Positions 7,900 through 28,983 are shown, counted from the first letter of the stretch. The stretch: DNA of 37,353 nt from a virus (IMGVR_UViG_3300044838_000012:1-37353); one strand, 5' to 3'. The notes: generated by a model not told the origin, from the sequence alone. A program made the numbers and translations.

Positions 7900-8105
7900 G
7901 GCTTGTGCTCCTGGTCGGGGTTGCGGAGTGTGGTGGGGTTGGTGTGGGTGGTTTCGGCTAGTGAGATGGGCGTGTCGGTGAGTCGTCGGATGCTGTTGCG
8001 GGCTAGTGCGCGTTCTTCTGCGCGGGGGTCGAGTTGGGCGGGAAATGTGGTGCCTGGTTTGTGTCCTCGGTATTCGGTTCGGCTTGTGACTTCGTAGGTG
8101 GGCAC
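7896..8105 (-). CDS. Small hypothetical protein upstream of tail chaperone
   Basis: A 69-residue protein starting MPTYEVTSRTEYRG. The first part looks like a small beta-rich domain; the C-terminus is polar (NPTTLRNPDQEHKP). Its stop overlaps the chaperone start by ATGA, so it is in the tail operon. No family recognised. Its place between a fibre-like gene and the chaperone suggests a minor structural or assembly role. Confidence 0.6.
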   Translation of the reverse strand: MPTYEVTSRTEYRGHKPGTTFPAQLDPRAEERALARNSIRRLTDTPISLAETTHTNPTTLRNPDQEHKP

Positions 8106-8124
8106 AGAGGCTCGATTCGATGCC

Positions 8125-9390
8125 CTACGAGACGAGGGTCAGGCCCTGCCACTGGTCATTGGCGTAGACGTACTCTTTGGCCTGTGACGGCGGGAGGTTC
8201 ACATCGCCGCCGCCCTGAATCAGTCCCGCACCCGCTTCGGGTGCCGCCGCAGCGCCGTATTCAGTAACCGCATTGGCCTCATCTATGAGGATCAAGGCCC
8301 CACTGCCATCTGGCGCAACCGGGTTGACTACGGTCACGATCTGACCCGGCGTCTCCGCTGCAATCCCGGAGAGGACGGCAGTCGGAGTGTCTGTGCTCGG
8401 CACCCAGAAGATGTCCCCGTCCGGCGTAAGGTTGCCGGGCGTCGTGTCCCAAGCTGGTTCCGTGTCGCCGGTCTTGCTCTGGCGCGCAACGACATAGCCG
8501 AGCTGCCAGACCTTCCCAACGAAGGTCGCTGGTACGGCGTAGACCTCGTTCCCCTGACCCGATGGGCTGGTCGGGTCAAAGTCCCACGCGACGCGGTTCC
8601 CGGCCGACCAGGGAATCGCCTTCCCAATGTTCTGCCAGCCGAGATCGTTGTCCGTGACGACGTCTCCGATGTTCGGGACGCTCGACCAGTCGGGAGGCGT
8701 TGATCCGGTCGTGCCGCCGGGGAACGGGTCGGGGAAGGCCGGATTGGTAGGCGTCCAGACGAAACCGTTGGCGGTGATCGTCGCGCTCACGTTGAAGTCA
8801 TCGACGGTGTAGGCCGTATCGGGCGTCCAGGGGCCGAGGTAGGCGTTAGGGCCGTCCCAGACGATGTCACCGTCATCGGTAAATCCCGTTTCGCCAGAAT
8901 CGCTGAAGTCCGGCTCGCTTTCGCCGGTCAAACCGGCCAGCGGTGCGGCAGCCCGGAAGACGGTCGAGTCGTCTGCGGTCGGCACGACAAACGCTCCTGC
9001 GGATGTCCACCCGGTCTGGCCGTCTGTGCTCGCGTCTGGCCCCTGCGCGTCGTAGTCGTGGTTGGCCTGCCACGGCTGAGGCGTCGGGTCTAACAGAACT
9101 ACGTCGGCACCAGCGGGGGCAATGCCACCGAGGATGAAGCCGTTTTGTGTGAGCGCGTAGGGCATCGAACCGCCGCTCGGCGGCTCACCAGCCCACTCAC
9201 CCTCCGCCACCGTCAACACATCACCCTCATCCGTCGGATCAGGCAACGCACCAGCCCCCGCTACCGACGTCACTGCCCCGTCCGGCGCCATCTTCTTGAA
9301 CACCCCGTCCGTGTCGACGAAGAAGATGTCCGTCTCATGCTGCGGCAACGCCAGCTTCGGCGTCCTACGCAACCGCAGAAAACTCCCCAC
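8125..9390 (-). CDS. Repeat-containing structural protein (putative fibre or decoration)
   Basis: A 421-residue protein with a GTG start that overlaps the upstream glycosyltransferase by 26 bases. The N-terminal DIFFVDTDGVFKKMAPDG is typical of tail or head fibre beginnings. Three related repeats of 70-80 residues start near Trp107, Trp188 and Trp261, each with W-x-A/P, a Gly/Ser-Pro-x-W or -F segment and a DGDIxW or DNDLGW ending. Such Trp- and Gly-rich repeats occur in carbohydrate-binding and decoration proteins of phages. Its close neighbour is a glycosyltransferase, so it could be the modified substrate; that is inference. Confidence 0.6.
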   Translation of the reverse strand: MGSFLRLRRTPKLALPQHETDIFFVDTDGVFKKMAPDGAVTSVAGAGALPDPTDEGDVLTVAEGEWAGEPPSGGSMPYALTQNGFILGGIAPAGADVVLLDPTPQPWQANHDYDAQGPDASTDGQTGWTSAGAFVVPTADDSTVFRAAAPLAGLTGESEPDFSDSGETGFTDDGDIVWDGPNAYLGPWTPDTAYTVDDFNVSATITANGFVWTPTNPAFPDPFPGGTTGSTPPDWSSVPNIGDVVTDNDLGWQNIGKAIPWSAGNRVAWDFDPTSPSGQGNEVYAVPATFVGKVWQLGYVVARQSKTGDTEPAWDTTPGNLTPDGDIFWVPSTDTPTAVLSGIAAETPGQIVTVVNPVAPDGSGALILIDEANAVTEYGAAAAPEAGAGLIQGGGDVNLPPSQAKEYVYANDQWQGLTLVS

Positions 9391-10120
9391 ACCCCACCTC
9401 CCTCATCTCGTCGAGCGCAGCCACCGGATACACCCCGGACAACGCCTCGAACGGATCCTCAACCTCCGGGCCACGCCGGAACCCAGTCAACATCGAGTAG
9501 CTGTTCAACTGCTCGCCGCTCGATTTCCAGTCCACGATCTGCAACGGATGCACGTCGAGATCGACGGTGCGAGGGAACTGGCCGCGACTCGCATACTTCA
9601 AGCCCTCGAGAGCGCTGGTGTCCACGGCGCGGTAGCGGTCCTCAGCGGCCGGCCGATACCCAGCCGCCGCGAGCAGACGGCGGGACAGAATCCTGACCCC
9701 GCAGCCGCCCTTGTAACCGACCCGCAATCGCGACAACCGAGTCCGCGTCTCATCGACAACTGCGAGCTGCCGGAACACGCCAACCTCATCGTCGCGCGGT
9801 AGCCGGGACAGGATCACCGGGTCGATCCAGTCGTCGCTGCCACAAGGGATCACGAAGTCGGCAGGCTCAGAGTTGAACTCCGGGTCGCACGCCTTCTGGA
9901 ACCCGTCGTTGAACTTCCGGCCCAGAAACGCATTGTCTCGTCGCACGGTCGCGAAGCCGAGATCAGCCGCGACGTCCAAGCTGGCGTCGTCGCCGACCAC
10001 CACAGCCGTCGCCTCCACGCCGTACTCAGCCGCAGCGAGACAGGTACGCGCGAGCTGGCGCAGACAGACGCGCGTCAACGCGAGACGGCCGTGCACCGGG
10101 ACGAGGAACCAAACCCTCAC
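9365..10120 (-). CDS. GT-A type glycosyltransferase (family 2-like) in the tail gene cluster
   Basis: A 251-residue protein. It starts VRVWFLVPVHGR at a GTG overlapping the previous stop by GTGA; a longer start at 10159 would overlap more and adds no domain. The nucleotide-sugar fold is seen in AVVVGDDAS (Asp44-Asp45) and in CGSDDWIDP (residues 94-100), the acidic pair expected to bind metal and the sugar nucleotide. It lacks membrane segments and should be cytoplasmic. It lies between a tail terminator-like gene and a repeat-rich structural protein, which suggests glycosylation of virion proteins. Glycosyltransferases modifying capsids and tails are known from actinobacteriophages. Confidence 0.75.
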   Translation of the reverse strand: MRVWFLVPVHGRLALTRVCLRQLARTCLAAAEYGVEATAVVVGDDASLDVAADLGFATVRRDNAFLGRKFNDGFQKACDPEFNSEPADFVIPCGSDDWIDPVILSRLPRDDEVGVFRQLAVVDETRTRLSRLRVGYKGGCGVRILSRRLLAAAGYRPAAEDRYRAVDTSALEGLKYASRGQFPRTVDLDVHPLQIVDWKSSGEQLNSYSMLTGFRRGPEVEDPFEALSGVYPVAALDEMREVGCGEFSAVA

Positions 10121-10560
10121 GAGAATCCGTCCTCGCTCGTGAGCGTCCCGACCTTCCACTCCTGGCCGACATACTGGACGACTTTCCCCGAGGGATCGGT
10201 ATAGAGGCGGAAGCCGGTCGGCCCGCTGATCATGATGTTGTCGATCAGGCCGTCGAGCTTCGTGTCGGCGAGAAGCGCGGCCCGCACAGAACCATCGCCG
10301 GTCGGCGCGCGCGAGGCGAGAAGGAAATCCTGGACGCTCTCACCGTCCGCCGTCGCGGTCCGCATCCGGATCGTCCACCAATGCGTCCGCGACTCGGGTC
10401 CGAACGCGAGGTCCTCCTCCGCCGGGTCAGCCGGGTAGATGTCGATCTGGGCCTGACCGGGCGCGAACACCATCCTGGACGCGACCTCGACGTCCTCCGT
10501 GGCAGCGAGGTCAATGAGGGCTTCTGCGAGGGCGTCTGCGATCTGGGCCGGAGTAGTCAA
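10117..10560 (-). CDS. Tail terminator-like head-tail joining protein
   Basis: A 147-residue protein when started at the TTG at 10560, which overlaps the previous stop as TTGA; a start at 10614 would give 165 residues. The pattern ESRTHWWTIRMRTAT, DGSVRAALLADTKLDGL, FRLYTDPSGKVVQYVGQEW is that of small tail terminator or joining proteins of siphoviruses. Its position after the connector and before the tail genes agrees. No enzyme motif. Confidence 0.6.
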   Translation of the reverse strand: MTTPAQIADALAEALIDLAATEDVEVASRMVFAPGQAQIDIYPADPAEEDLAFGPESRTHWWTIRMRTATADGESVQDFLLASRAPTGDGSVRAALLADTKLDGLIDNIMISGPTGFRLYTDPSGKVVQYVGQEWKVGTLTSEDGFS

Positions 10561-10931
10561 ATCAGGCCCCAACTGCGTTTTAGCGGCGCCAAGGTATTGC
10601 TGTGCCGCTCCCACGAGTTCCTAGGCGTCAAGAACGGCGTCTCGCCGCCCAAGCCGATCACACCGACCGGCAACCCCTCGATCACCCACAGGTCGGCAGC
10701 CCTGGACAGATTCACGGTCGCGGCCAGTGCGAGGTAGTCCTCGTTGGCGGGGCTAGCGTCCAAGAGCGCCACTCCCTCAGGGCCGATCTCCGTGTCGATC
10801 TCGAGCGCCGCCGCATCCAAGACGCGCTGAAGGTCAGCCTCGCGCGTGGTCGCGTTGACCTTTAACTGTTGGGCGAGCGTCTCGACGTTTGCGTATGCCA
10901 TGGCGTCATACGCTGGGCGCCCCCGAGCCAT
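10557..10931 (-). CDS. Head-tail connector (gp6-like) protein
   Basis: A 124-residue, mainly helical protein: YANVETLAQQLKV, READLQRVLDAAALEIDTEIG, YLALAATVNLSRAADLWVIEG. This matches DNA-packaging adaptor proteins that sit under the portal. A second ATG at 10901 (MAYANVETLAQQ) is the better fit to the family and may be the true start. An inverted repeat (CTGGGCG at about 10912-10918 and CGCCCAG at about 10940-10946) surrounds the upstream start and could form a hairpin in the mRNA. Confidence 0.7.
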   Translation of the reverse strand: MARGRPAYDAMAYANVETLAQQLKVNATTREADLQRVLDAAALEIDTEIGPEGVALLDASPANEDYLALAATVNLSRAADLWVIEGLPVGVIGLGGETPFLTPRNSWERHSNTLAPLKRSWGLI

Positions 10932-10959
10932 GACCAGGGACGCCCAGCATCAGTCCTCT

Positions 10960-11385
10960 CTACGTGGTGTTCAGGCTCGGTGCCCCAGTCAGCCGGAACG
11001 TCACCGGGTTCGGGCTCAGTTCGCCTGCGGCTCCCTGGAGGAACTTGTAGGCGTACAGCTTCACGTTCGCCACGAAGACGGGATTGTCGCTCGCTCCCGC
11101 GTCGCCCTTCGGCCCGATCCGGATCTCGAACTCGTCGTTCGATTCCGACAACGGCCAGAGGGTCTCGTGGACGCCTCCGCTGTCGAACCCCTGGTAGAAT
11201 TCGACGGTGATCGTGCCGGACTTGAGGCCCGGCTCGAACTCGTGCCAGCCATCACCTCCGAACGTGTCGGCTGCGAGCTCGTCGGCGGACGTGTCGACAT
11301 CGACCGACCGTGCGCTCCTGGTCAGCGTCGTGCCGTCGACCATGACCGACACGTCGCGGAGAACGAGCTTCTCTGGCGTACTCAT
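10960..11385 (-). CDS. Putative major tail (tube) protein
   Basis: A 141-residue protein with a clear AGGGGGAG site before ATG 11385. The sequence KLVLRDVSVMVDGTTLTRSARSV, TFGGDGWHEFEPGLKSGTITVEF and PVTFRLTGAPS has the beta pattern and wording of siphovirus tail tube proteins. It directly follows the capsid gene and precedes the connector gene, which is earlier than usual for a tube protein. A head decoration role is the main alternative. Confidence 0.55.
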   Translation of the reverse strand: MSTPEKLVLRDVSVMVDGTTLTRSARSVDVDTSADELAADTFGGDGWHEFEPGLKSGTITVEFYQGFDSGGVHETLWPLSESNDEFEIRIGPKGDAGASDNPVFVANVKLYAYKFLQGAAGELSPNPVTFRLTGAPSLNTT

Positions 11386-11400
11386 GCTCGCTCCCCCTTT

Positions 11401-12663
11401 CTAGGTTGCCGGGCCGATGTCGGCGAACCGCTCGTCGTCGAAGCTGATCGCCTTGAACGCGCCGATCACGCCGACCTCGAGGCCGCCGATCGACGGCTCC
11501 ACCGCGCGGAGTTGGACGGGCGCGCCTGCGGTCTCGCCGACGAGGAGCGCCTTGCTGTCCCCGACGATCGCGGTGCCCGTGTCGAAGCCGATGCTCGTGA
11601 CGACATTCAGGCCTGCGAGGCGTCCGGAGAGGCCGGGCAGGTCGAGGTTTCCGGCGTCGATCAGCTTGGTACCGGCGACCGAGGTGAGCGCCGCGGCCAG
11701 CATGAACATGTCGACCGACAGGTAGAGGGTGTCCGGCTTGGCGCGGGTCTCCTCGAACACCTGCGAGAAGCCTCCGAGCACGGCAGTGATCCAGTCCTCG
11801 AACGTGTCCGACGAGGTGCCGGCGAGCGAACCCGACATGACCGTCGCTGCGGCCTTCGCGAGGACGTGGCAGGCTGCCGCCTCGGTCTGGCGGGCGTACG
11901 CCTCACCCATCAGCCGGAAGAACAAGTCGAGCGCCGACGGCGTCGACCAGTTGATCGCCTGCCAGGACAGGTTTCCGGCGCCGAGATACGTGTCCGCGGC
12001 GTCGTCCTCCATCGAGATCCCCATCTTCTGGGAATTGTTCTCGGTCTTCTCGGTGTCCTGGATCCTGACGATCGGCCGCGTGGTGATCTTGGGCCAGGTC
12101 AGCTTGCCGCTGGTGAGGTCGACCCTGTTGCCCGAGACGACGACAGGCCGCGAGGCGTCGATCACGTCCATGATCTGCTGGATGTGGACGGGCGGCAGCA
12201 GGCCGCCGACGTCCGAGGTCAGCGTGTGCGCCGGGGCGCGGGCCAGACGCTCGGTGGCCGCCTGGACTGCCTGCGGTCCCTGCTCGGACTGGACCTTCGA
12301 CCGGATGTCCTCGACGTCGCTGACGAGGCGGTCTCTGGCGTAGGCGGAGAAGGTGCGGTACACGATCTCGTCGCCGTCGCGTTCGACGCCGGGCGCGTTG
12401 CCGACCATGTGGCCGCGCAGGAGCTTCGAGGTCTCCTCGGACTTCTTCTCGCGGTCGAGGTCCTCACCGATCACGGCGAGTTCGGCGTCGATCGCTGCGG
12501 AGCGCTCGCGGAATCCCTTGAGCGTCTCCTCTTCGGAGTCGGTGATGGTGCTGTCGCCGCGGCTGTTGGTGTCGGCGATGAGGTTCTCGCGCATCTCGTC
12601 GAGCTTGACGCGCTCCTCCATCAGCCGTTCGGCGCGGACTCTGGTGTTCGTGAGAGGTGGCAT
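11401..12663 (-). CDS. Major capsid protein, HK97 fold
   Basis: A 420-residue protein with a strong TTGGAGGG site before ATG 12663. Residues 1-80 are charged and coiled-coil (RAERLMEERVKLDEM, LDREKKSEE), like the HK97 delta domain removed by the protease during maturation. The rest has HK97-fold marks: LTSDVGGLLPPVHI near residue 150, ADTYLGAGNLSWQAINWSTP, a long helix, and VGVIGAFKAISFDDERFADI at the end. It follows portal and protease genes in normal order. Confidence 0.85.
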   Translation of the reverse strand: MPPLTNTRVRAERLMEERVKLDEMRENLIADTNSRGDSTITDSEEETLKGFRERSAAIDAELAVIGEDLDREKKSEETSKLLRGHMVGNAPGVERDGDEIVYRTFSAYARDRLVSDVEDIRSKVQSEQGPQAVQAATERLARAPAHTLTSDVGGLLPPVHIQQIMDVIDASRPVVVSGNRVDLTSGKLTWPKITTRPIVRIQDTEKTENNSQKMGISMEDDAADTYLGAGNLSWQAINWSTPSALDLFFRLMGEAYARQTEAAACHVLAKAAATVMSGSLAGTSSDTFEDWITAVLGGFSQVFEETRAKPDTLYLSVDMFMLAAALTSVAGTKLIDAGNLDLPGLSGRLAGLNVVTSIGFDTGTAIVGDSKALLVGETAGAPVQLRAVEPSIGGLEVGVIGAFKAISFDDERFADIGPAT

Positions 12664-16581: not shown

Positions 16582-16790
16582 TGCTTCACCGCGATCTTTG
16601 GGATCGAGCAAAGGCCGCGATAATCGCCGTCTCCCATGTCGTCCCTGGCGATGGTCACGTACTCGTCCGTCTCGGCCACGACAAACCCGACCGATGTAAT
16701 GACCACCGGCCGCGGGAAGTCGTCCTTGTCGACCTGGCCGTTCTGGAGGGACGAGTCAATCCAGCGCACTGTCCGAAGTAGAGCCATCAC
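16578..16790 (-). CDS. Small hypothetical protein, 70 residues
   Basis: MALLRTVRWIDSSLQNG, followed by VVITSVGFVVAETDEYVTIARD and ending GLCSIPKIAVKQ. This matches, from memory, a common small phage family with a VRWxDS start, an SVGxxVxE core and an IPK ending; its function is unknown. ATG overlaps the stop of the glycosyltransferase gene by ATGA and its stop overlaps the DUF6625-like gene. Confidence 0.7.
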   Translation of the reverse strand: MMALLRTVRWIDSSLQNGQVDKDDFPRPVVITSVGFVVAETDEYVTIARDDMGDGDYRGLCSIPKIAVKQ

Positions 16791-17153
16791 GGCATCCACC
16801 TGTCCTCCGCGAACAAGCCAAACCGGCTCGACGAAAACAAATGCGCGACCCGCACCTCGGGGCCGGGCCGCTCCCCGTTGTAGTAGCGGATCACGGTCCC
16901 GTCCCGCCAACCGTTAAGGACACCGAACGGTGCGATGTCGAAATCGTCGGGCCTGTCAGGGACGACATCGCTCAGCAGGTGTGGGCCGCACTTGCCCCAG
17001 CGCGATTCGCCACCGTTGAGGATCGTCTCGGCTCGAGCGGCCAGGGCGATGAGCGTGTCGGCTCCCTTACGAGCAATCACGACGGCGCTGTTGTAGGGGT
17101 GGCCCGCGTCGAAGCCCGGCTCATGCTCGTACGACACGCAGACGTCTCGCGTG
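16787..17153 (-). pseudogene. 3' part of a glycosyltransferase gene split by the IS1595-type element
   Basis: This fragment encodes the C-terminal half: DVCVSYEHEPGFDAGHPYN, then AVVIARKGADTLIALAARAE and a final VAHLFSSSRFGLFAEDRWMP. It lacks its own start; the ATG in the transposon end at 17179 is probably not natural. Joined to 19785-20106 after removal of 17154-19784 and one 8 bp duplication, it gives one open frame of 226 codons plus stop reading WDLLTRDVCVSYEHE across the joint. So the intact gene was a DXD-type sugar transferase (Gly_transf_sug-like). Confidence 0.85.
17146..17153. repeat. Target-site duplication, left copy (CTCGCGTG)
   Basis: Matches 19785-19792. Eight bases is the duplication length known for the IS1595 family. 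The direct match extends by one base on each side (10 bp in all), so the exact border may shift by a base. Confidence 0.85.
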
Positions 17154-17177
17154 AAGGGGTATCCACTTAGGTGGCCC
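17154..17177 (+). repeat. Left terminal inverted repeat of element A
   Basis: AAGGGGTATCCACTTAGGTG followed by GCCC. Matches the inverted right end at 19761-19784 in 23 of 24 bases, and closely matches the ends of the cassette at 21.7-22.4 kb and the remnant at 28.68 kb. Confidence 0.9.
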
Positions 17178-17179
17178 AT

Positions 17180-18151
17180 TTAGTGAGTACCGGGCATCAT
17201 CATCTGCGGCGTGAGCAGGTTCTTGTACGGCTGCGGGTCGGTAGCGACCGCGCCCTCCATGAGCCGGTAGAACAGCAGGCCGCGCGAGCGGCTACTGCGG
17301 CGGTTGAAGCGAAACACGAACTCGTCGCAGTAGTAGTCCAACTGCTCCCGGCTCATGCCGCCCTGGTGCGTCCCGAGCAGCCACCGCTTCAAGAGGGATG
17401 CGACCCGGTGGGCGTGCGGCATGGCGACGTGCGCGACCTCTGTCTCGTCGGCGGACATGACCGAGACGCGGTGCCCGTACCCGTACCGGCTGATGTCGCG
17501 GTAGCCGACGTGGCCGTCCGTGTGGATGATCGAGCCGCGCTGCACGTTCGCGGTGATGAAGTCCTCCAAGCTGTTCGTCGTCGTGTCGGGGATACGGGCG
17601 AGCCGGACGCGCCCTGCGGCCCGCTCGTGCGCCTCGACGGCGACCACGACGATTGCCTTCCCGAACGGCGACCGGCCCTTCACCTTCGCGGTCTTGACGC
17701 CGCCGATGAACGTCTCATCGACCTCGACCACGATGCCGGGTCCGCCGATCATGTCGCGGCCCTGCCTGACCATCGCGCGGCGCAGCTTGTGCAGCCACGC
17801 CCACGCCGTCTGGTAGGAGCCGAAACCGAGCGACCGCTTCAACCCGAGCGCCGACACGCCGTTCTTCTGGCTGACGACGTGCCACATGACGTGGAACCAC
17901 ATCGTCAGCGGGAACCGTGTCTTGTCGAAGATCGTCCCGGACGTGACGCTCGTCCGCTTCCGGCAGGTTTTGCAACGCATCTTGCCGTCTGCCATGCGCC
18001 ACGGCTCCGCTACGACGCCGCAGAAGGGGCACACGAAGCCGTTGGGCCAGCGGATCTGCTCGACGTAGGCGAGGCAGGCTTCTTCGGTGTCGAATCGCTT
18101 GATGAACTCCGCGAACGTGCACGGATAGTCGGCAGTCGCAGCGGGACTCAC
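17180..18151 (-). CDS. IS1595-family (ISXO2-like) DDE transposase
   Basis: A 323-residue protein from a GTG at 18151 (VSPAATADYPCTF), which overlaps the stop of the methyltransferase C-terminal frame by GTGA; the longer start at 18196 is less likely. N-terminal zinc ribbon: VCPFCG and CKTCRKRT. Catalytic core: VVEVDETFIGG, SIIHTDGHVGY, then HVAMPHAHRVASLLKRWLLG, FVFRFNRR. This is the ISXO2/IS1595 DDE arrangement. The stop lies about 26 bases from the transposon end, so the gene is full length. It should move both element A and the transposase-free cassette nearby. Confidence 0.92.
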   Translation of the reverse strand: MSPAATADYPCTFAEFIKRFDTEEACLAYVEQIRWPNGFVCPFCGVVAEPWRMADGKMRCKTCRKRTSVTSGTIFDKTRFPLTMWFHVMWHVVSQKNGVSALGLKRSLGFGSYQTAWAWLHKLRRAMVRQGRDMIGGPGIVVEVDETFIGGVKTAKVKGRSPFGKAIVVVAVEAHERAAGRVRLARIPDTTTNSLEDFITANVQRGSIIHTDGHVGYRDISRYGYGHRVSVMSADETEVAHVAMPHAHRVASLLKRWLLGTHQGGMSREQLDYYCDEFVFRFNRRSSRSRGLLFYRLMEGAVATDPQPYKNLLTPQMMMPGTH

Positions 18152-19462
18152 GATGACTCCCCGCCAGCAGCAGCAGCCAACCGGCCACCGATCCACTCCG
18201 AGACGTTCGCGGTAACGGCGTCCCCGACCGCCGAATAGCGGCGTGAGTCGGGGGTGTCGCCGATGTCTGTCCAGCCGTCAGGCAGGCCCTGTAGGCGCTC
18301 ACATTCCACCGGAGTGAGGCGGCGGACGCCGACCTCCGGGCCTGCGACGCCGGAGTCCCTACGGCCACCACCGCGACCGGAGCGGAGCGCGGGATGTAAA
18401 CCGTCCTCCTGCGTCTCGGTCTGCGCTCCGTCCTCGCGGCCCCGGCTCGTGAACGTGACACAGTTCCCGTCCGAGTTGGAGCCGGGTCGCGGATGCGAGC
18501 GCACCGTGCCGCTCACCGCGAGGTTTCCTGACGGCTCGGCAGAGAGGGCAGGCGTGTGGTGGTGGTGGTGGACGGGATCTTGGGTTGCGTGGAAGGAAAC
18601 AAGGCGCCCCGCCTGGGCGTCGTTGTCGTCCGGCCCGCCGTTACCCATTCCCGTCAACGCGGACAAGTGCCTCCCCCCGGTCGAAGGGGTTTCCGTCGTT
18701 CCCGCGACCCTTGCCAACGCTTCCTCCAAGTGGGGAGGCAACGTCCTGCCGCATTTCTCCGCGCGGCGCAAGATGCCGGAAGCAGCCCTGGCCGACAGCG
18801 AGTATTTCGCCGGCACACGTTGCGGCGGCTCGAGGATCTCCGACAGCGAGGGCTCCGACGATGAACACTCGCCGTCGGCGCTGCGGCACTCCGAAGAACC
18901 GTGAGTCGAGAATCCGCCATGCCACGCCGTACCCGAGGTCGGCCAGCGTTCCAAGCACGACTCCGAAGTCCCGACCGCCGTTCGAACTGAGCAGTCCGGG
19001 TACGTTCTCGACGAGTACCCAGCCGGGTCGAAGAGTGTCGATGATTCGGGCGAACTCGAAGAAGAGTCCGCTGCGGTTGCCTTCGAGTCCGGCTCGTTTC
19101 CCGGCGACGCTGAGGTCTTGGCAAGGAAAGCCACCGCAGAGTAGCCCTGCCCCGGCTTCCCACCGCCCGCCGTCAACTGATGCGCCACCTCCGTCAGTAG
19201 CAGCTCGCCCCGCTGGTTCTCCGAGAGTGCCGCGATGTATGTCGCTTCCGGGTCGTAGCTCCATCCCCGGCCTTTCTGCGCCTTCAGTGTGTTCGCGACC
19301 AACGGCTCGCACGTCGTCGTAGACGGGCACTCCGGGCCAGCGGGCTCGGAGCACGTTCCGTCTGTACGGGTCGGATTCGCAGAAGAAGACGTGCTCGTGT
19401 CCGGCTCTGGCGAGTCCGAGGTCGAGTCCGCCGATCCCTGAGAAGAGCGATCCGACATTCAC
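18148..19462 (-). CDS. C5 cytosine DNA methyltransferase, split over two frames at a G6 run
   Basis: Frame A (19462-18641, GTG start) holds SLFSGIGGLDLGLARAG (AdoMet site), GGFPCQDLSVAGKRAG with the catalytic Cys, the ENV motif in VLVENVPGL and QRRRRVFIVG, then stops in the target-recognition region. Frame B, one base on, carries GVRRLTPVECERLQGLPDGW and GDAVTANVSEWIG, the two C-terminal motifs, and stops at 18148. Losing one G in the run at 18673-18678 would join them into a 437-residue enzyme. It may be a programmed or slippage frameshift, a damaged gene or a sequence error. The product would methylate cytosine, protecting DNA from restriction. Confidence 0.8.
18673..18678 (-). other. G6 homopolymer at the frame break of the cytosine methyltransferase
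   Basis: Coding strand reads GAC CGG GGG GAG in frame A and ACC GGG GGG AGG in frame B. A G5 tract restores one frame (NPFDRG joined to RHLSALTGMG). Six identical bases are prone to polymerase or ribosome slippage. Confidence 0.6.
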
Positions 19463-19677
19463 ACAGACGCCGTCTTGGCGAGAGCGTTCTTGATCTCCGC
19501 GCGGCGTCCCTTACCGTGCTTCGTGAGCGTGAGGATATCGTGCGTCTCGTTGTAGCGAGCGATGACCTGCCCGTTTTCCGTCGGCAAGTCCTCGTCGAGG
19601 ACGACGAGAACCTGCGGCGTGAGAGTCTTGCGTGTGATGCGAAGCCTGGTTGCCTTGCAAGTAGTCTGATCCTGCAT
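19459..19677 (-). CDS. Small transposon-borne protein of unknown function
   Basis: A 72-residue protein with a GGAAGG ribosome binding site before ATG 19677. It is polar: MQDQTTCKATRLRITRKTL, VLVVLDEDLPTENGQVIAR, LTKHGKGRRAEIKNALAK. The mix of beta strands and a basic end could suit a small nucleic-acid-binding or regulatory protein, but no family is recognised. It is the first gene of the operon inside the element and overlaps the methyltransferase start, so it may regulate or assist that enzyme. Confidence 0.6.
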   Translation of the reverse strand: MQDQTTCKATRLRITRKTLTPQVLVVLDEDLPTENGQVIARYNETHDILTLTKHGKGRRAEIKNALAKTASV

Positions 19678-19699
19678 CAGGGTTCCTTCCTGGTGTCAC

Positions 19700-19734
19700 G
19701 CCGGGGGCGGTTCACGCCGCGCCCCGGCTCTTTT
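19700..19734 (+). terminator. Strong GC hairpin followed by TCTTTT, oriented on the plus strand
   Basis: Arms GCCGGGGGCGG (19700-19710) and CCGCGCCCCGGC (19717-19728) pair almost fully around a six-base loop, then TCTTTT follows. On the plus strand this has the form of a Rho-independent terminator, although all genes lie on the minus strand. It lies in the leader of the transposon operon, so it may block antisense reading or fold in the operon mRNA. Confidence 0.55.
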
Positions 19735-19760
19735 GCGTCTGCCCTCAGCATAGCACAATC

Positions 19761-19784
19761 GGGCCACGTAAGTGGATACCCCTT
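19761..19784 (-). repeat. Right terminal inverted repeat of element A
   Basis: Inverse complement of the left end with a single change (ACTTACGTGG instead of ACTTAGGTGG). The inward sequence continues GATTG, which is also found inside the left end of the small cassette at 21.7 kb. Confidence 0.9.
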
Positions 19785-20106
19785 CTCGCGTGAGCAGATC
19801 CCAGCAGGGCTTCAGGCTGATCGTGTCGAGGTCGAGGTAGAGGCCGCCGTGTTCGTGGAGAATGTTCCAAGCGGCAAGGTCTTTCACGTTTGCGAGGCCA
19901 ATCGGGTGCTTCAGGTAACCGCGACAGTCGAGTAACTCACGCACGTCAACGCTGCCGTCGAGCGCCGCCCATTCCTCGCCGTCAGGTTCTTGAGTGCACC
20001 AGACGGTGATCGGCGCTTCATGCACGCGAGCGGTCGTGACTGCTCGCGCGTGTTGCCAGAGGAAGTCGCCGCCGAGGTAGATGAAGTGGACACGGCGGTC
20101 AGTCAC
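19785..20106 (-). pseudogene. 5' part of a glycosyltransferase gene split by the IS1595-type element
   Basis: GTG at 20106 gives MTDRRVHFIYLGGDFLWQHA, later VKDLAAWNILHEHGGLYLDLD with the DXD motif at residues 92-94. This is the donor-binding half of a Gly_transf_sug-like sugar transferase. The reading frame runs into the transposon end and terminates there with foreign residues at 19696. The other half is at 16787-17153. Without the acceptor half it is unlikely to be active. First eight bases at 19785-19792 are the right copy of the target duplication. Confidence 0.85.
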
Positions 20107-20146
20107 AGATACGCCTGTAAGCCATCAGGAGCGACGCTAACGCCAT
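20099..20146 (-). CDS. Possible 15-residue coupling micro-ORF
   Basis: MALASLLMAYRRICD starts in a TGATG overlap with the stop of the two-domain glycosyltransferase and ends overlapping the start of the next one. Its exact fit between two genes suggests it keeps ribosomes moving across the gap. It may not make a functional peptide. Confidence 0.35.
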   Translation of the reverse strand: MALASLLMAYRRICD

Positions 20147-21582
20147 CACAGTGTCACGGCCGGGTGACGCCGCCGCTCCCGCTGGTTCATCACCGACACG
20201 CCCCCGTCGTTCGTCACAGCCAACGACTCGTGGACGCGGTACATGCGCGCGCCGAGCCCGTCCAGCTTCCGCGATAACGCAGCCCCGACCCCTGACCCGG
20301 TCGGAGGCAGCTTGCGCGGCCGCTCCAACCTGAAGCCGAGCAGGGTGAGCGCGTCGCGGCGACAGAGGTAGAGACCGTCCACGTGGAACGTCTCGTCGGC
20401 ATCCTCACCCGCGACAGGTGTCTTTCCGGTCCAGTTGGCGAGACCCTCGAGCGACCTGAGCCGCCATAGCGTCAGCGCCGCCGGATCGTCCAACCTGTAC
20501 CAGGCCGTGATCGCCTTCGGAATCGCGTGCCTGACCAGGCGCACGTCATCGGGGAGGAACAGATACCAGTCCGCCGAGGACCGCCGCGCCCGTCGGAGCT
20601 CGGCATCGACGACACGCCAGTATTCCTCGCGTCCGAGACGTCGGTCGAAGGTGTGCCATTCCCAGCCTGCCCGGCGAACCATCCGCTGCGGCAAGGCGTA
20701 GTCGCTGACCCCATCCGGGTCCTCGAACACGCACACATGCAGATCGACCCAGCGCGCCTCACGAGCCAGGTCGTCGAGAAGTTGGCGGAGCAGATCGGGA
20801 CGCCCACAGGTCGAGACCGACACATGGATGAGCGGCAGACGCGGAGGTGGCTGCAGCCAGTCGAAGCGGCGGATCTCCCGTTCGCTGTTTGCGCGCGTGT
20901 CGAGACGTGTCCCGTCGGCGTTGCGGTTCGAGTCGTAGATCCGACGACCGCGGCCGACGGGAGGACAGATGTCTTTGAGCCACCCCTCCCGGTGCGCAAG
21001 CGCGACCATCGGCACACCCAGCGCTCGCGCGTGGGTGGCGAACTGGACGTCGGCCATGTTCGGGTAGCGGAACACGTCACGCCAGATCGGGACATGGCCA
21101 GCGTGGAAGCCCATCGCCCCGGTGCCAAGCACGTTGATGTCGGGATCGTCCTGCTCGAGCGTGCCGAGACAGCGGACGCGCTTTCCGCTGGCGCAAACGT
21201 GGAAGCCGTTCCAGCCGAGCGTCACGCCGCCGTGGAACCCGACCGCATGGTCAGACCTCCAGGTGTCGAGCCCCTCCCGGATCCGGTCGACGTAGTCGCG
21301 CGGGTAGAGAATGTCGTCGTCCACGGTGACAACGATGCCGTCCCAGTTGTCGACGCCCGCGAACTTCTCGGCGTCGCCGCCGTTCTGGTCGCCCTTCATC
21401 AGCACTTCGACGTTCTCGTGCTTCGCGAGTCCGCGTGGTGGGCGTTCGTACTCGTTGAGGCAGAGGACTAGCCGGTCGCATTGAGGGGCGAGCGACGCGA
21501 CGGCTGCCTGCATGGATTGGGCGCGTTCGGGGATCGAAGCGAGACCAACCAGCACTTCATCGCTACTTGGCGACGTGGTCAA
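20146..21582 (-). CDS. Two-domain glycosyltransferase (tandem GT-A folds)
   Basis: A 478-residue protein from a TTG at 21582 that overlaps the stop of the small gene upstream as TTGA; a GTG at 21555 is an alternative. Domain 1 (residues about 10-240): VLVGLASIPERAQSM, DNWDGIVVTVDDDILYPRDY with an acidic DDD metal site, and VLGTGAMGFHAGHV. Domain 2 (about 250-460): LIHVSVSTCGRPDLLRQLL, WYLFLPDDVRLV with a DD pair, and DGLYLCRRDALTLLG. Two transferase domains in one chain suggest successive sugar additions. It heads the glycan island. The longer frame up to 21789 is not supported. Confidence 0.8.
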   Translation of the reverse strand: MTTSPSSDEVLVGLASIPERAQSMQAAVASLAPQCDRLVLCLNEYERPPRGLAKHENVEVLMKGDQNGGDAEKFAGVDNWDGIVVTVDDDILYPRDYVDRIREGLDTWRSDHAVGFHGGVTLGWNGFHVCASGKRVRCLGTLEQDDPDINVLGTGAMGFHAGHVPIWRDVFRYPNMADVQFATHARALGVPMVALAHREGWLKDICPPVGRGRRIYDSNRNADGTRLDTRANSEREIRRFDWLQPPPRLPLIHVSVSTCGRPDLLRQLLDDLAREARWVDLHVCVFEDPDGVSDYALPQRMVRRAGWEWHTFDRRLGREEYWRVVDAELRRARRSSADWYLFLPDDVRLVRHAIPKAITAWYRLDDPAALTLWRLRSLEGLANWTGKTPVAGEDADETFHVDGLYLCRRDALTLLGFRLERPRKLPPTGSGVGAALSRKLDGLGARMYRVHESLAVTNDGGVSVMNQRERRRHPAVTL

Positions 21583-21700
21583 CGTTGCCGCTCGCGATTG
21601 AGCTCTTCGCAGGCAGCGTGGACTGCGCGCCATTCTCCGCCGGGTGTGCGGATGTCGAGTCGCATGTCGATTGCACCTTCGAGCCGTACGGGTTTGCGTC

Positions 21701-21708
21701 CTTCGCTG
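21701..21708. repeat. Target-site duplication of the small cassette (CTTCGCTG)
   Basis: The same eight bases occur at 22381-22388, directly after the right end of the cassette. The direct match extends three bases further (11 bp in all), so the exact border is uncertain by up to three bases. Confidence 0.8.
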
Positions 21709-22380
21709 ACTGGGTATCCACTTAGGTGGCCCGATTGAGTCACGTCGCCACCTTCGACGCGCTGCGGGCCATGTTGAGTAGAGCCTCACGGAACGCGAGG
21801 GGCGTAGCCTGCGCTTCCTTCGTTCGCACGCGCTTGGACTCGTCCGGGACGTACTCGCCGGTCGCTAGGTGCTTGAAGCCGGACACCTTCGCGGTGACGC
21901 GCGGCTCCGTCCAGCGCAACGATGCCGGCTCGGGGCCGACGTAGTAAAGCCACGTCCGCTTGCGTGCCCGGTGTCCGTAGGCAGCCTGCGACACCTCCGT
22001 CGAATACCCAGGATCGAATAGCGAGCTTGTCCAGCCACCCGGTGACGGGCGTGGGAGGCTGTAGCGTGTCCACGCGAGCGATAGAGCCGGATGCTCTAGC
22101 ACTCCTCCATACGTCCTGACAGCGTGCAACGCTGCCTCGAAGCAGCCGCCGTCCTCGCCAGGTTCAAGACCGCAGGACGCCTTGACGAGCGGCCAGAGCA
22201 CCGACCAGCGAGCACACGGCGGGTGCGCGACCACGGGCCACGGGCCCGCATACAGCCGCGCGTCACGCTCCTCGTCCCACGGGTCAACGTCGGGCAGGCC
22301 GAAGTACGCGCCGCCCTTCTCGACGTACAACGCGGCGACGGTGATTTCAGCGGCTAGGGCCATCTAAGTGGATACCCCTT
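21709..22380 (-). mobile_element. Transposase-free cassette with IS1595-type ends (element B)
   Basis: A 672 bp unit. The right end reads AAGGGGTATCCACTTAGATG inward; the left end reads ACTGGGTATCCACTTAGGTG inward and continues GCCCGATTG as in element A's right end. It is flanked by 8 bp duplications and contains one ORF that fills nearly the whole unit. There is no transposase, so it must be moved in trans, most simply by the enzyme of element A 3.5 kb away. Confidence 0.88.
21740..22363 (-). CDS. Cargo protein with HPPC motif (possible DNA-modification-related phage protein)
   Basis: A 207-residue protein. Its ATG lies inside the terminal inverted repeat of the cassette (ACTTAGATGGCC). It contains VYVEKGGAYFGLPDV-type wording (LYVEKGGAYFGLPDVDPWDE), VAHPPCARWSVLW, GEDGGCFEAALHAVRTYGG, VLEHPALSLAW and SQAAYGHRARKRTWLYYVG. 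I recall this as a phage family of unknown function; the HPPC segment and the surrounding pattern recall the PC or PPY loop of DNA methyltransferases, but a classical AdoMet motif is not clear. It may modify DNA or support a modifying enzyme; that is inference. Confidence 0.6.
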   Translation of the reverse strand: MALAAEITVAALYVEKGGAYFGLPDVDPWDEERDARLYAGPWPVVAHPPCARWSVLWPLVKASCGLEPGEDGGCFEAALHAVRTYGGVLEHPALSLAWTRYSLPRPSPGGWTSSLFDPGYSTEVSQAAYGHRARKRTWLYYVGPEPASLRWTEPRVTAKVSGFKHLATGEYVPDESKRVRTKEAQATPLAFREALLNMARSASKVAT

Positions 22381-22440
22381 CTTCGCTGACTCGCCATTCG
22401 ATTCCATTGAATGATCCGCAATCACCCGGTTTGAAGTGTG

Positions 22441-22878
22441 TCATCGTTCCCACCAGATGACATTTGCTTGTCGACCGAAGATGACGACCGCCGATGGAAA
22501 CGGCGCTGGGTTAGCACCGCCTCCAAACTTGAGACGTCCTCGCAGGAAGCGTATTTCCGCGTAGCGGCAGTGGTTCCACCACCATCTGGTATCAACGCGG
22601 GCTGGCACGAGACTGACGACTGTTGCTCCGTTGTCTGCTGACTGATGTGCCTTCGCTACCCAGTTAGGGATGGCGTTTCCGTAGGGCGGGTTCATCCAAC
22701 ACGAACCCGTCCATGACTGCTGGAGACCGTCGTCGGCTTCGGTGTAGTACGCCTCGCATTTAGCGTTGTCTGGAACAGCACAGACGTCAAGCGTGAACGC
22801 GAACTCTTCGTTGAGTTGGTCGAAGAGGTCTTGCGGTGTCGCCCAGAGATCGGTCGCGCTCGAGTAGTGAATGTCCAT
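22441..22878 (-). CDS. Phage-type DNA N6-adenine methyltransferase
   Basis: A 145-residue protein matching the short phage Dam family: WATPQDLFDQLNEEFAFTLDVCA, then SCWMNPPYG with the NPPY catalytic motif at residues 63-66, and ending with PFPSAVVIFGR. These enzymes methylate adenine in DNA and help phages avoid host restriction. ATG at 22878. It lies after the terminase and a small ParB-like gene, and its stop overlaps the interrupted 61-residue gene. Confidence 0.9.
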   Translation of the reverse strand: MDIHYSSATDLWATPQDLFDQLNEEFAFTLDVCAVPDNAKCEAYYTEADDGLQQSWTGSCWMNPPYGNAIPNWVAKAHQSADNGATVVSLVPARVDTRWWWNHCRYAEIRFLRGRLKFGGGANPAPFPSAVVIFGRQANVIWWER

Positions 22879-25717: not shown

Positions 25718-25905
25718 GCGTGCCCCGCTTTCGTGTCCCAGTTTTCGCTTTTAAGGGGTTGGGTCAGACATGCTTGCCTGTCCTTGTCCCCTATATATAG
25801 GTGGGACAAGCAGGCAAGGCAGTCCGAGCGTGTCTGTGGGACAGGGTGCTTGTCCCGATATTGCACGTTGTCCGTGGTTGTCCGGGACAAGGTTGGGATG
25901 GTCAT
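25714..25905 (-). CDS. Doubtful 63-residue ORF over a repeat-rich region
   Basis: ATG 25905 overlaps the methyltransferase stop by ATGA and the stop overlaps the next start, which supports translation. However the sequence (TDNVQYRDKHPVPQTRSDC and later LYIGDKDRQACLTQPLK) has no domain pattern and lies over a cluster of inverted TTGTCC repeats with lower GC. It may be a non-coding control region that happens to be open. Confidence 0.3.
   Translation of the reverse strand: MTIPTLSRTTTDNVQYRDKHPVPQTRSDCLACLSHLYIGDKDRQACLTQPLKSENWDTKAGHA
25778..25890. promoter_or_regulatory. Cluster of TTGTCC/GGACAA inverted repeats (operator or origin candidate)
   Basis: Six copies of TTGTCC lie within 107 bases: plus strand at 25784, 25850, 25868 and 25878, and as GGACAA at 25804 and 25885. 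Two pairs form palindromes: TTGTCCGGGACAA (25878-25890) and a wider one around the AT-rich core CTATATATAG (25791-25800). A third, GGGACA and TGTCCC, spans 25838-25856. It sits between the replication-type genes and the packaging genes. It may be an operator, an iteron-type origin or a promoter control site. Confidence 0.55.
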
Positions 25906-27449
25906 GCGAGGAGGCTCTGTTGTTGCAGTCTGCGTGCCGCAAGCTGCGCGTATTCGGGGTTGAGTTCAATGCCGATTGAACGGCGGCCTAGGCGTCGGGC
26001 GACGAGGGCCGTGGTGCCGCTGCCCATGAACGGGTCGAGAACGACACCGTTCTGCGGGCAGCCTGCTTTGAGGATTCGTTCGACGAGCGCTTCGGGCCAG
26101 GTGGCGAAGTGGGCTTCGGGGTAGCCTTGGGTCGGGATCGTCCAGACCGAGCGCGGGTTCTTCCTGCCATCGATCTGCACGTTCGGAACTTCGCGCTCCC
26201 CCTTAACATCCGTCCGTCCATCCCGCGCGTCAGCGCCACGCTTCCGTCCGAAAGCGTCAATCGCTCGAATTTGCGCCTTCGTCTTCGGCTGCATCCACCC
26301 AGATGCCGTCTCCGTCCCCTCGTACTTCGGCACCGTCTGGTCACCCCAGCGCGCCCACTCCGCCGGTTCGGCGATCGCCTCTGTGTCGAAGTGGTAGCGC
26401 GCTGACTTGGAGAGCAGGAAGACGTACGAGTGGGCGGTCGTGCAACGGTCCGTCGCCGACTCGGGCATCGCGTTCGGCTTTCCCCATACGATGCACTGCC
26501 GCAGATAGAACCCCGGCTCCCACATCGATTCTGGGTCCTTGCCGTCCAGATCAACCGCCGCACCAGCGTGGAGCGCCTTGATCGCCTCCTGATGGTCCGC
26601 CGCCGCGTCTCCTGATCGTGGGCACGCAAGTGCGACTCTCGCCTGCTGCTGCTTTGCCACAAGGTGGGGATAGAGCTCGCGGAGTAGATCGCGCGCCTGA
26701 TCGCCCGTCACCTGCCACTGGTACAGCGTCTGCTTGCGCTGTTGCTTCCCTGTCCCTGCCTCGTGAGCGCTAATTGAACCGAGTCCGTAGATCGACTTGC
26801 ATTTCTCGACGATCGCGCGACTTGTGTTCGAGACGCCGACCATTGCGCCGTAGGTGTCAGTTCTGCGCTCGTAGTTCACGGTCGTGCCGTCGCGCCGAGT
26901 GAACTTCGACCCTGTGGGTCTTCCTGCCTTGCGACGGTGGATGTGGATACACCCTTCGGCATCCACCATCGCGGCGAGCCACACGCGATCAATTTCCTTC
27001 TTGATGCGGCCGATGTACCAAGGACCGCGTAGCGCCTTCGCGAGCAGCCACGGTGTTCCAATGAGGTCCTTCGGCTTACAGCCGTCAACTAGCCGAGACC
27101 GCCCCTCAATAGCGGCGCGGGCTCTGCCGATCTGGCGGGAGGCCATCTGCCCTGTTTCGCCCTGCGGGCCGTTACGCGACCCGACATAGGAGTCACCGCA
27201 CTCGATCCAGAGCGTCCCCGCTGGCTTCAGCAGCCGCCGCACCTCACGGAACACGCCGACAAGCTCGGCGCACCAATCCTCCGGCGACGCCTCCAACCCA
27301 ATCTGACCCTCCACGCCGTAATCGCGTAGCCCGTAGAACGGCGGCGACGTCGCGCAGCAGTCCACCGACTCGTCCGGCAGCTCGGCCAGCACGTCACGCA
27401 CGTCGCCCACGTAGAGCTGGAAGTCGACGTCATCAACAAACGGTTCCAT
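25902..27449 (-). CDS. DNA N4/N6 methyltransferase with internal LAGLIDADG domain
   Basis: A 515-residue protein. Methyltransferase parts: CCATSPPFYGLRDYG (TSPPF motif at 34-38) at the N-terminus, and VVLDPFMGSGTTALVARRLG (AdoMet motif at 472-480) at the end. Between residues about 143 and 312 is an inserted domain: DRVWLAAMVDAEGCIHIHRR, VGVSNTSRAIVEKCKSIYG, LLRELYPHLVAKQQQARVAL, a LAGLIDADG endonuclease pattern. There are no intein end motifs, so it is likely a built-in domain. ATG 27449 overlaps the helicase stop as TGATG. It may both methylate DNA and help recognise target sites. Confidence 0.85.
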   Translation of the reverse strand: MEPFVDDVDFQLYVGDVRDVLAELPDESVDCCATSPPFYGLRDYGVEGQIGLEASPEDWCAELVGVFREVRRLLKPAGTLWIECGDSYVGSRNGPQGETGQMASRQIGRARAAIEGRSRLVDGCKPKDLIGTPWLLAKALRGPWYIGRIKKEIDRVWLAAMVDAEGCIHIHRRKAGRPTGSKFTRRDGTTVNYERRTDTYGAMVGVSNTSRAIVEKCKSIYGLGSISAHEAGTGKQQRKQTLYQWQVTGDQARDLLRELYPHLVAKQQQARVALACPRSGDAAADHQEAIKALHAGAAVDLDGKDPESMWEPGFYLRQCIVWGKPNAMPESATDRCTTAHSYVFLLSKSARYHFDTEAIAEPAEWARWGDQTVPKYEGTETASGWMQPKTKAQIRAIDAFGRKRGADARDGRTDVKGEREVPNVQIDGRKNPRSVWTIPTQGYPEAHFATWPEALVERILKAGCPQNGVVLDPFMGSGTTALVARRLGRRSIGIELNPEYAQLAARRLQQQSLLA

Positions 27450-28684
27450 CAGAACGGAAGGCTCTCAGCCTCGGGCGGCACCGTCTCGGTCTCCACCCAC
27501 TCCTTCAGCCCCCACAGCACCGCGTTCGATTTCGCGCCCAGCGCCTTCGCTTGCACGCCGGTTAGCGACACGAACATGTGCGGCGCCCCTTCCAACGCCT
27601 TCTTGACGTCGACGCGGCGCCGCTCGAGATCCTTGGCGAGCTCGGTGCCGGTCTGCCAGCCTTGTCCCTTGCGGCCACGCTTGTTCGCCCGGTTTGTGGC
27701 GAGGTGCTCGTACAGGTCGGGTTCGAGGATGGTGGCGTCTCCTTCTTCTGCGAGCGCGACGAAGCTCATGGTGTTCCAGACGCGGCCCAGCACGATCGGG
27801 TTGGGGCGGCGTTTCCGCGCCCAGCGCAACTTCGGGTAGGCGAGGCGGGCCTGATCGTCGGAGTGCGTAGCGGTGAGGGTGAGCAGCGTGTCGAGGTGGC
27901 CGCCCCAGGCGCCCGAGATGCGGGCAAGCTCGTCTTCGGTGCGGTCGATCCGTTCCCGGAAGTGATGGAGGAAGAAGAAGGCTCGGTTGGTGCCGAGGCC
28001 GAGCGGTCTGAGGCAGGCGACGAAGTCTCGCGTGTCGGAGGGGGACCCAACGCCGGCGGGGCCGAGGCTCGAGAGCGGGTCGCCGATCACGAGGTCGACC
28101 TGGTGCTGGTCGAGTTCGGTGGCGGCGCGTCGGCTGGCGTCTCTGTCGGCGAAGCTGAACGATCCCCAGAGCCAGGTCTGGATGTGGAGGCTGCCACCGA
28201 GGTCCCGGATGTCATGGGGGAAGGCGGTGAGTTTGTCTTGGAGCTTGACCCTGAACATCTCCTGCGGGCCTTCGTTTTCTATCAGGGCGACGTTGAGAGG
28301 CCGGGGGACGTGCCAGGGCGTGGGTCCTTGGTCGTTTTCGATCGGTGGGTAGGGGAGTCCGGCTGCGAGGTGGCAGGCGAGGTCGAGGATCCAGGTGGTT
28401 TTGCCTGCGCCTGGTCTGCCTGCGAGTAGTGAGAGTCCTCCTGCGGCGAGGATCGCGGCATCGTCGTTGCCCCAGAGTGGTGTGGGCGGGTCGGTCTTCT
28501 GGTTGACGAAGTCGTAGGCGTCGAGGAAGACGGGGCCGTCGTCGATGCTGCCGTTGGTTGTGGCGAGTTCGCTGTCGACCTCGGCGTCGATCAGGGATTG
28601 GTAGGCGAGGGCGTCGGGGTCGTAGCCGACTGCGGCGAAGGTTTCGGCGAGCTCGGCAGCTGTGACGAGTGGTTCAGTCGTCAA
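27449..28684 (-). CDS. RepA/DnaB-like hexameric ATPase (AAA_25), putative replicative helicase
   Basis: A 411-residue protein from a TTG at 28684 overlapping the stop upstream as TTGA. LLAGRPGAGKTTWILDLACH holds Walker A (89-97); VDLVIGDPLSSLGP holds Walker B (196-204); FFFLHHFRE lies further on. The C-terminal part (GWQTGTELAKDLERRRVDVK) looks like a winged helix. RepA-like ATPases of this class unwind DNA at phage and plasmid origins. It lies immediately downstream of a truncated IS1595-type end, which supplied the bases around its start. Confidence 0.75.
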   Translation of the reverse strand: MTTEPLVTAAELAETFAAVGYDPDALAYQSLIDAEVDSELATTNGSIDDGPVFLDAYDFVNQKTDPPTPLWGNDDAAILAAGGLSLLAGRPGAGKTTWILDLACHLAAGLPYPPIENDQGPTPWHVPRPLNVALIENEGPQEMFRVKLQDKLTAFPHDIRDLGGSLHIQTWLWGSFSFADRDASRRAATELDQHQVDLVIGDPLSSLGPAGVGSPSDTRDFVACLRPLGLGTNRAFFFLHHFRERIDRTEDELARISGAWGGHLDTLLTLTATHSDDQARLAYPKLRWARKRRPNPIVLGRVWNTMSFVALAEEGDATILEPDLYEHLATNRANKRGRKGQGWQTGTELAKDLERRRVDVKKALEGAPHMFVSLTGVQAKALGAKSNAVLWGLKEWVETETVPPEAESLPF

Positions 28685-28983
28685 GGGGTATCCACCTTAG
28701 TTGACCCATTCAGCGAGTCCCCGGCAACGTCATCTGCGGCGTGAGCAGGTTCTTGTAGGGGTGCGGATCGGTGGCGACCGCGCCTTCCATGAGCCGGTAG
28801 AACAGCAGGCCGCGCCTTCTCGTGACCGAGCAGCGCTAGCACGGCCTCGGCCAGCATCCAGTCAGTCGTGTCTCGGTCGATGGTTTCGTAGACGTGCCAC
28901 GCGCAGCGTTCGAGGTCATCCCATGTGCCAGTGATCGCTGCCGGATACGTCCTCGCGGCAGCCGATTCGTCTAGCGATCCCAC
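28681..28983 (-). pseudogene. Small gene truncated by element C
   Basis: GTG 28983 has a strong GGAAGGAGG site. Residues 1-56 are credible: SLDESAAARTYPAAITGTWD, LERCAWHVYETIDRDTTDWM, LAEAVLALLGHEK. The remaining 44 residues are read from the transposon remnant in a foreign frame (ending STKVDTP), so the natural C-terminus has been lost. The new stop overlaps the helicase TTG start and may keep coupling. Confidence 0.7.
28683..28815 (-). mobile_element. Truncated IS1595-type end with 3' stub of a transposase gene (element C)
   Basis: Begins AAGGGGTATCCACCTTAG, one end of the same family, and continues with the last ~33 codons of a transposase related to that of element A (RGLLFYRLMEGAVATDPHPY and onward, stop included). 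It then breaks abruptly into host gene sequence at 28816. The second end and the duplication are missing, so an internal deletion took most of the element. It differs from element A at many positions, so it is an older or separate insertion. Confidence 0.85.

Follow-up and report, generated by a model that had tools for sequence, protein, structure and literature searches.

The 37,353-bp stretch of phage DNA analyzed here, an IMG/VR record referred to below as the window, carries the tailed-phage genes for a large terminase, portal, major head protein, DnaB-like helicase and exonuclease VIII, and also two insertions, elements A and B, only one of which codes for a transposase. This raises the question of whether the two belong to a single family of mobile units that supplies phages with DNA-modifying enzymes. 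A preliminary description of the sequence had proposed such a modular system; the observation behind it is confirmed and its interpretation is largely supported, none of the three outcomes that it had named as refuting having occurred. We hold that A and B probably belong to one phage-borne transposon family, in which B-type cassettes are moved in trans and methyltransferase cargo is kept for the benefit of the phage.

The end motif GGGTATCCACTTANNTGGCC occurs four times in the window (17157+, 19762-, 21712+ and 22358-), against an expectation of zero and none in 100 shuffles even at 3 mismatches, which, together with the perfect 8-bp duplications, rules out chance inverted repeats. As previously claimed, A and B share inverted ends, and each has its own duplication (CTCGCGTG and CTTCGCTG, respectively; Table 1). 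The terminal inverted repeats of A, 24 bp long and 96% complementary, are of the type AAGGGGTATCCACTTA, which recurs in B. The claim that the two have the same ends holds for the motif, present in all four, but not for the tips, as the left tip of B reads ACTGGG and the other three AAGGGG. Joining the flanks of A creates a continuous 226-aa frame with a glycosyltransferase DXD region, of which no intact homolog was found among sequenced phages, and joining those of B creates a 61-aa frame that begins at the end of a Dam-type methyltransferase gene; hence, both elements are insertions into phage genes. A single collapsed composite of A and B is ruled out by the differing outer flanks, CTCGCGTG versus CTTCGCTG; A and B each have a separate duplication and interrupt a separate gene. 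The tip AAG is common to both ends of A, the right end of B and the relic at 28683-28815, and ATG occupies the tip in most relatives from other phages, a pattern that would fit B having been moved by the lineage of A. The tip of the relic, a decayed A-type end, also provides the predicted TTG start of the DnaB-like helicase gene (27449-28684).

Table 1. Coordinates of the elements and associated features in the window and in other phage contigs (L numbers)
Feature	Position	Strand	Size	Basis or remark
Element A, IS1595-family with passenger genes	17154..19784	-	2631 bp	Paired inverted ends, 8-bp duplication, Pfam
Target duplication of A, left, CTCGCGTG	17146..17153			Matches right copy
Target duplication of A, right, CTCGCGTG	19785..19792			Matches left copy
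Inverted repeat of A, left, AAGGGGTATCCACTTAGGTGGCCC	17154..17177	+		End-motif match
Inverted repeat of A, right	19761..19784	-		Inward: promoter-like -10, then GC-rich hairpin
Transposase of A, DDE_Tnp_IS1595 with N-terminal Zn ribbon	17180..18151	-		PF12762 9e-30, PF12760 1e-16
C5 cytosine methyltransferase of A, two frames	18148..19462	-		PF00145 3e-48
ORF of A, no assigned function	19459..19677	-	72 aa	GTGA overlap (4 nt) with methyltransferase start
Glycosyltransferase gene with DXD motif, interrupted by A (16787-17153 + 19793-20106)	16787..20106	-		Empty-site ORF
Decayed left end, third A-type copy	28683..28815	+		89% identical over 132 bp
Element B, transposase-less one-gene cassette	21709..22380	-	672 bp	Paired ends and 8-bp duplication
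Target duplication of B, left, CTTCGCTG	21701..21708			Matches right copy
Target duplication of B, right, CTTCGCTG	22381..22388			Matches left copy
Cargo of B, phrog_12600, putative diverged, truncated C5-methyltransferase fold	21740..22363	-	207 aa	PHROG match, AlphaFold2 and Foldseek
ORF split by B (22389-22444 + 21579-21708)	21579..22444	-	61 aa	Joined flanks; downstream of Dam-type methyltransferase
L008	12991-13610		620 bp	Matching duplication
L009	2545-3050		506 bp	Matching duplication
L010, miniature without transposase or cargo	10820-11022		203 bp	Matching duplication
L011	1408-2777		1370 bp	Matching duplication
L012, transposase-bearing	1318-3867		2550 bp	Matching duplication
L013	1622-3089		1468 bp	Matching duplication
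L020	7229-8274		1046 bp	Matching duplication
L021, transposase-bearing	6975-8984		2010 bp	Matching duplication
L029, transposase-bearing	2625-5254		2630 bp	Matching duplication
L036	4584-5617		1034 bp	9-bp duplication
L031/L037			786-bp unit	Without matching duplications

Element A shows each IS1595 feature that we looked for, namely the DDE_Tnp_IS1595 domain with its zinc ribbon, terminal inverted repeats and an 8-bp target duplication, the last being the rule in this family (PMC8101967). From its right end it codes for the 72-aa ORF, the C5 methyltransferase and the transposase, whose GTG start overlaps the methyltransferase stop by 4 nt (GTGA). Pfam thus bears out the transposase and the cytosine methyltransferase earlier ascribed to A, but the latter spans two frames, with the catalytic part at 18641-19462 and the C-terminal part in the other frame, ending at 18148. 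The gene looks frameshifted, being either broken or affected by a base-call error in the six-G run at 18674-18679, and its activity should not be assumed.

Element B was described earlier as carrying only a protein with an HPPC motif, and this is correct: it has a single 207-aa gene, the ATG of which lies within the right inverted repeat, and no transposase. The protein matches phrog_12600 (7e-56), whose function is given as unknown in PHROGs; it has no Pfam match, and thus none to PF00145, and a profile search of PDB chains recovered nothing. An AlphaFold2 model built from 40 relatives (pLDDT 91.5) was compared with the PDB using Foldseek, and all 50 matches listed are structures of the C5-methyltransferase family, including DIM2, DNMT3, DNMT1, DNMT2, HhaI and HaeIII (best E 1.7e-3 and probability up to 0.99, with weak to modest TM-scores of about 0.2-0.46). 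Among viral proteins the best match is unnamed (7e-6) and is followed, at E 2e-4 to 1e-3, by proteins annotated as SAM-dependent or cytosine methyltransferases, among others. HPPC is invariant across the 40 relatives and may be the counterpart of the PPC catalytic motif in C5 enzymes. We would describe the protein as a short, diverged version of the C5-methyltransferase fold, with putative enzyme activity. We also considered whether this gene is normally accompanied by such ends and ruled it out (0/80 relatives); phrog_12600 is a common phage gene and all 80 of the relatives examined are without them, indicating that the cargo of B was captured. Relatives of phrog_12600 are found in phages such as L160 (Rhodobacter phage Ebor) and even in microviruses with genomes of only 4.8-6.6 kb, and the C5-methyltransferase-like fold of this widespread small phage gene seems unrecorded in Pfam and PHROGs.

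The database search for the ends that the preliminary description had called for took the form of end-motif pattern scans of 2.9 million viral contigs and 84,980 bacterial and archaeal genomes. The viral contigs yielded, in other phages, 10 further elements whose target repeats are intact, the matching duplications being of 8 bp except for the 9 bp of L036, and one without such repeats (L031/L037); in the last two viral scans no new contig with a recognized paired element was listed (L186-L189, few new contigs, examined in part). The cellular genomes yielded a single real element, L017, a 121-bp miniature in an Actinomycetes MAG, and no such ends otherwise. L022, L027, L030 and L032, which share a GACGGGTATCCACTTGCCTGCCC-like stretch, were dismissed as chance matches or matches to conserved genes, as were other singletons without a partner or duplication. 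The ends are not confined to elements with a full transposase, since 8 of the 12 cargo-bearing elements lack one and the remaining four are A, L012, L021 and L029. A search of viral contigs for relatives of the transposase returned only L012, L021, L029 and a fragment; the three full-length proteins are 76-77% identical to that of A, and the best plasmid and Actinobacterial matches are 44-54% identical. The L029 element has 63% GC in a phage of 44% GC and is 98% identical to the L012 element over 726 nt, implying that elements have crossed between unlike phages. Passenger pieces common to L012 or L029 and to L013 (92-95% over about 100-140 nt) or L011 (75-77% over 135 nt) link the transposase-bearing and cassette forms. 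Most cassette-carrying contigs, which may be incomplete, show no intact cognate transposase; this implies that the cassettes move in trans with the help of the host or of another phage in a co-infection. The preliminary description spoke of compact cargo units moving within a phage genome; the pattern seen here is one of units distributed over many phages, and movement within one phage is hypothetical.

The transposase-less cargo units are closely trimmed: across all eight, the distance from the tip is about 17-37 nt for the first start codon and 13-34 nt for the last stop codon, placing these codons at the 24-bp repeats or immediately inward of them. In B, L013 and L031 the repeat itself supplies the start codon (TTAGATGGCC or TTAGGTGACC); in L020 and L036 it supplies the stop TAA. 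The latter two have an identical 34-bp 5' end and an identical 25-bp 3' end around unrelated methyltransferases, the clearest sign of interchangeable cargo. The cargo is codirectional with phage transcription in 8/8 of these units, B included (sign test P 0.008), and with the flanking phage genes in 11 of the 12 cargo-bearing elements (P 0.006), L012 being the exception, as would be expected if read-through expression were selected. The transposase-bearing elements have a conserved leader inside the right end (window 19670-19784 (-), L012, L021 and L029), in which a promoter-like TGGTACAAT (L012 and L021; similar in A and L029) is followed by a GC-rich hairpin and then a ribosome-binding site. 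Five pairs of the hairpin are kept by two-sided changes among the four sequences (covariation term +0.31), a signal of conservation that is only suggestive.

The cargo is likewise not random in function, as five of the eight transposase-less units, B and L013 included, carry a methyltransferase or methyltransferase-fold gene. Among the seven such units in other phages, four code for DNA methyltransferases of different types: an N6_N4_Mtase in L020 (3e-29, preceded by a 73-aa ORF) and in L031/L037 (3e-28), a C5 DNA_methylase in L036 (6e-38) and, by motifs only, the 196-aa protein of L013, which contains the motifs DPPY and FPGSG, matches D12-methyltransferase weakly (E 0.17) and is judged from its motifs, short of proof, to be a methyltransferase. 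The cargo of L008, L009 and L011 consists of proteins without known function, that of L009 having no match among phages. Enrichment was computed from Pfam-defined PF01555/PF00145 genes only, with background and elements treated alike. The 13 carrier contigs (697 kb) have eight such genes outside the elements and five inside, that is, 5/13 in 2.6% of the DNA (P about 1e-5) when the window and L037 are included; without the window and L037, a near-duplicate, the figure is 3/10 in 2.2% of the DNA, a density about 19-fold higher (P about 0.001). The sample is small, and the question had been set by the preliminary description before the data were seen.

These figures bear directly on the reading that we are dealing with an ordinary selfish IS, whose cassettes are derivatives of internal deletion or capture and whose methyltransferases reflect rich accessory regions of phages, with no phage function. 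The existence of cargo-free miniatures (L010, 203 bp; L017, 121 bp), the proteins without known function in some cassettes and the frameshift in the methyltransferase of A would all suit it. However, it sits poorly with a methyltransferase density inside the elements about 19 times that outside them on the same contigs, with the uniform codirectionality of the eight cassettes and with ORFs trimmed to the ends, and we consider it unlikely. Dam methylation controls transposition of some IS elements, and the methyltransferases might similarly serve the transposon by methylating its ends or the transposase promoter. The translational coupling of methyltransferase and transposase in A (the GTGA overlap) is in keeping with this, but no recognizable methyltransferase is found in the other three transposase-bearing elements (L012, L021 and L029), and the unrelated C5 and N4/N6 types in the cassettes would not all target the same end sequence, making this account highly improbable. 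The ends might be short recombination sites (integron-like or adapters for homologous recombination) by which phages exchange genes, rather than products of transposition, as the identical ends around unrelated genes in L020 and L036 and the divergence of the near-identical L031/L037 phages within 2 bp of an end could suggest; yet we give this scarcely any credence, for the perfect 8-bp duplications, paired inverted ends, a dozen independent sites and the IS1595 transposase in four elements are the signature of a DDE enzyme. The duplications contradict recombination as the sole account, though it could act additionally.

We return to the phage-borne transposon family, for which we infer cassette movement, expression and an anti-restriction role. 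A would be an element of IS1595 type that carries passengers and could in principle mobilize itself, and B a mobile insertion cassette with the same ends and no transposase, moved in trans by an A-like transposase. The DDE transposase would pair any two such ends and insert the intervening DNA at CTNCGNAG-like sites. Cassettes landing sense to a phage operon would be transcribed by read-through, with the stop codons and, in some cases, the cargo start codon in the ends acting as translational adapters, and selection would retain those that help the phage, most plausibly methyltransferases shielding its DNA from restriction. The shared ends, the 8-bp duplications, the interrupted phage genes, the same anatomy in many phages, the methyltransferase enrichment, the cargo orientation, the codon spacing, the ends common to L020 and L036 and the capture of phrog_12600 speak for this family; the lack of an intact cognate transposase in most cassette carriers, the frameshift in A, the 3/8 cargo units without known function, the small sample, the absence of matching duplications in L031/L037 and the antisense placement of L012 relative to its neighbors speak against it. 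More tentatively, and with somewhat less than even confidence, we posit a cassette system dedicated to phages, in which one largely phage-confined lineage of IS1595-type transposases moves interchangeable units of one or two genes, mainly methyltransferases directed against restriction, with the ends as translation start and stop adapters.

Both classes invoked here are established (PMC3129680, PMC5704250, PMC8101967). IS1595 elements that carry passenger genes are known as tIS, for example tISCpe8 and MTnSag1 (Siguier et al. 2009, as cited in PMC3129680 and PMC5704250), and mobile insertion cassettes as MICs, for example the Bacillus cereus IS231-MIC231 (De Palmenaer et al. 2004, as cited in PMC3129680). 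Like tIS, A combines a DDE_Tnp_IS1595 transposase bearing an N-terminal zinc ribbon with 8-bp duplications, inverted ends and passengers beside the transposase; unlike them, it sits in a tailed-phage contig, as its relatives do, the nearest plasmid or bacterial transposases found are 44-55% identical, and passenger ORFs overlap its transposase by 4 nt. Plasmid IS1595-like elements such as ISCsp2, with transposases about 45-50% identical to that of A, are too distant to be the same element. Like MICs, which are thought to be moved in trans, B-type units have IS-like ends, duplications and passenger genes but no transposase, and B itself has A-type ends, its own CTTCGCTG duplication and a passenger gene; unlike MICs, they belong with another transposase family, are phage-borne, carry a methyltransferase or its fold in 5/8 cases and in several instances have ends that include the cargo's start or stop codon. 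An integron gene cassette was rejected, as these lack target duplications and 8-bp duplications are present here. Cargo units without a transposase are a known class, but no methyltransferase-enriched phage cassette set was found in the literature searched; bacterial IS1595 elements with methyltransferase passengers may already be recorded. The parts belong to known classes, and the phage-borne methyltransferase cassette set appears new. Phages are considered to carry transposases rarely, and virulent phages very rarely (PMC8136500), and the exchange of genes among phages is usually attributed to recombination. If our proposal is true, phages would have a direct route to change their DNA-modification repertoire, by single methyltransferase genes dropped into operons in the right direction, and a ready means of swapping enzymes that may protect DNA from bacterial defenses. 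It predicts that cassette enzymes match local restriction systems, and more such units should be sought by their ends rather than by transposase.

Several carrier phages show further features. L031 and L037, at first read as a unit at two sites in unrelated phages, prove on longer sequence to come from two near-identical phages (99% over >10 kb) that diverge at the tip, similarity being lost within 2 bp of it (L031 2247 / L037 1089), which would fit a deletion or rearrangement next to the end and driven by it; they were not counted as independent transposition. In the window, an N6/N4 DNA methyltransferase gene at 25902-27449 (-) has its PF01555 match split into positions 1-60 and 71-220 by an in-frame insertion matching the HNH endonuclease phrog_5046, which is homing-endonuclease or intein-like. 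L021 has a resident C5 methyltransferase (9902-10606 (-)) 52% identical to that of A, a C-terminal stretch of which lies in another frame through two compensating shifts or sequence errors. In L010, the 203-bp miniature lies inside the transposase gene (10407-11427) of a different IS1595-type element, about 33% identical, and the empty site restores a frame of 299 aa.
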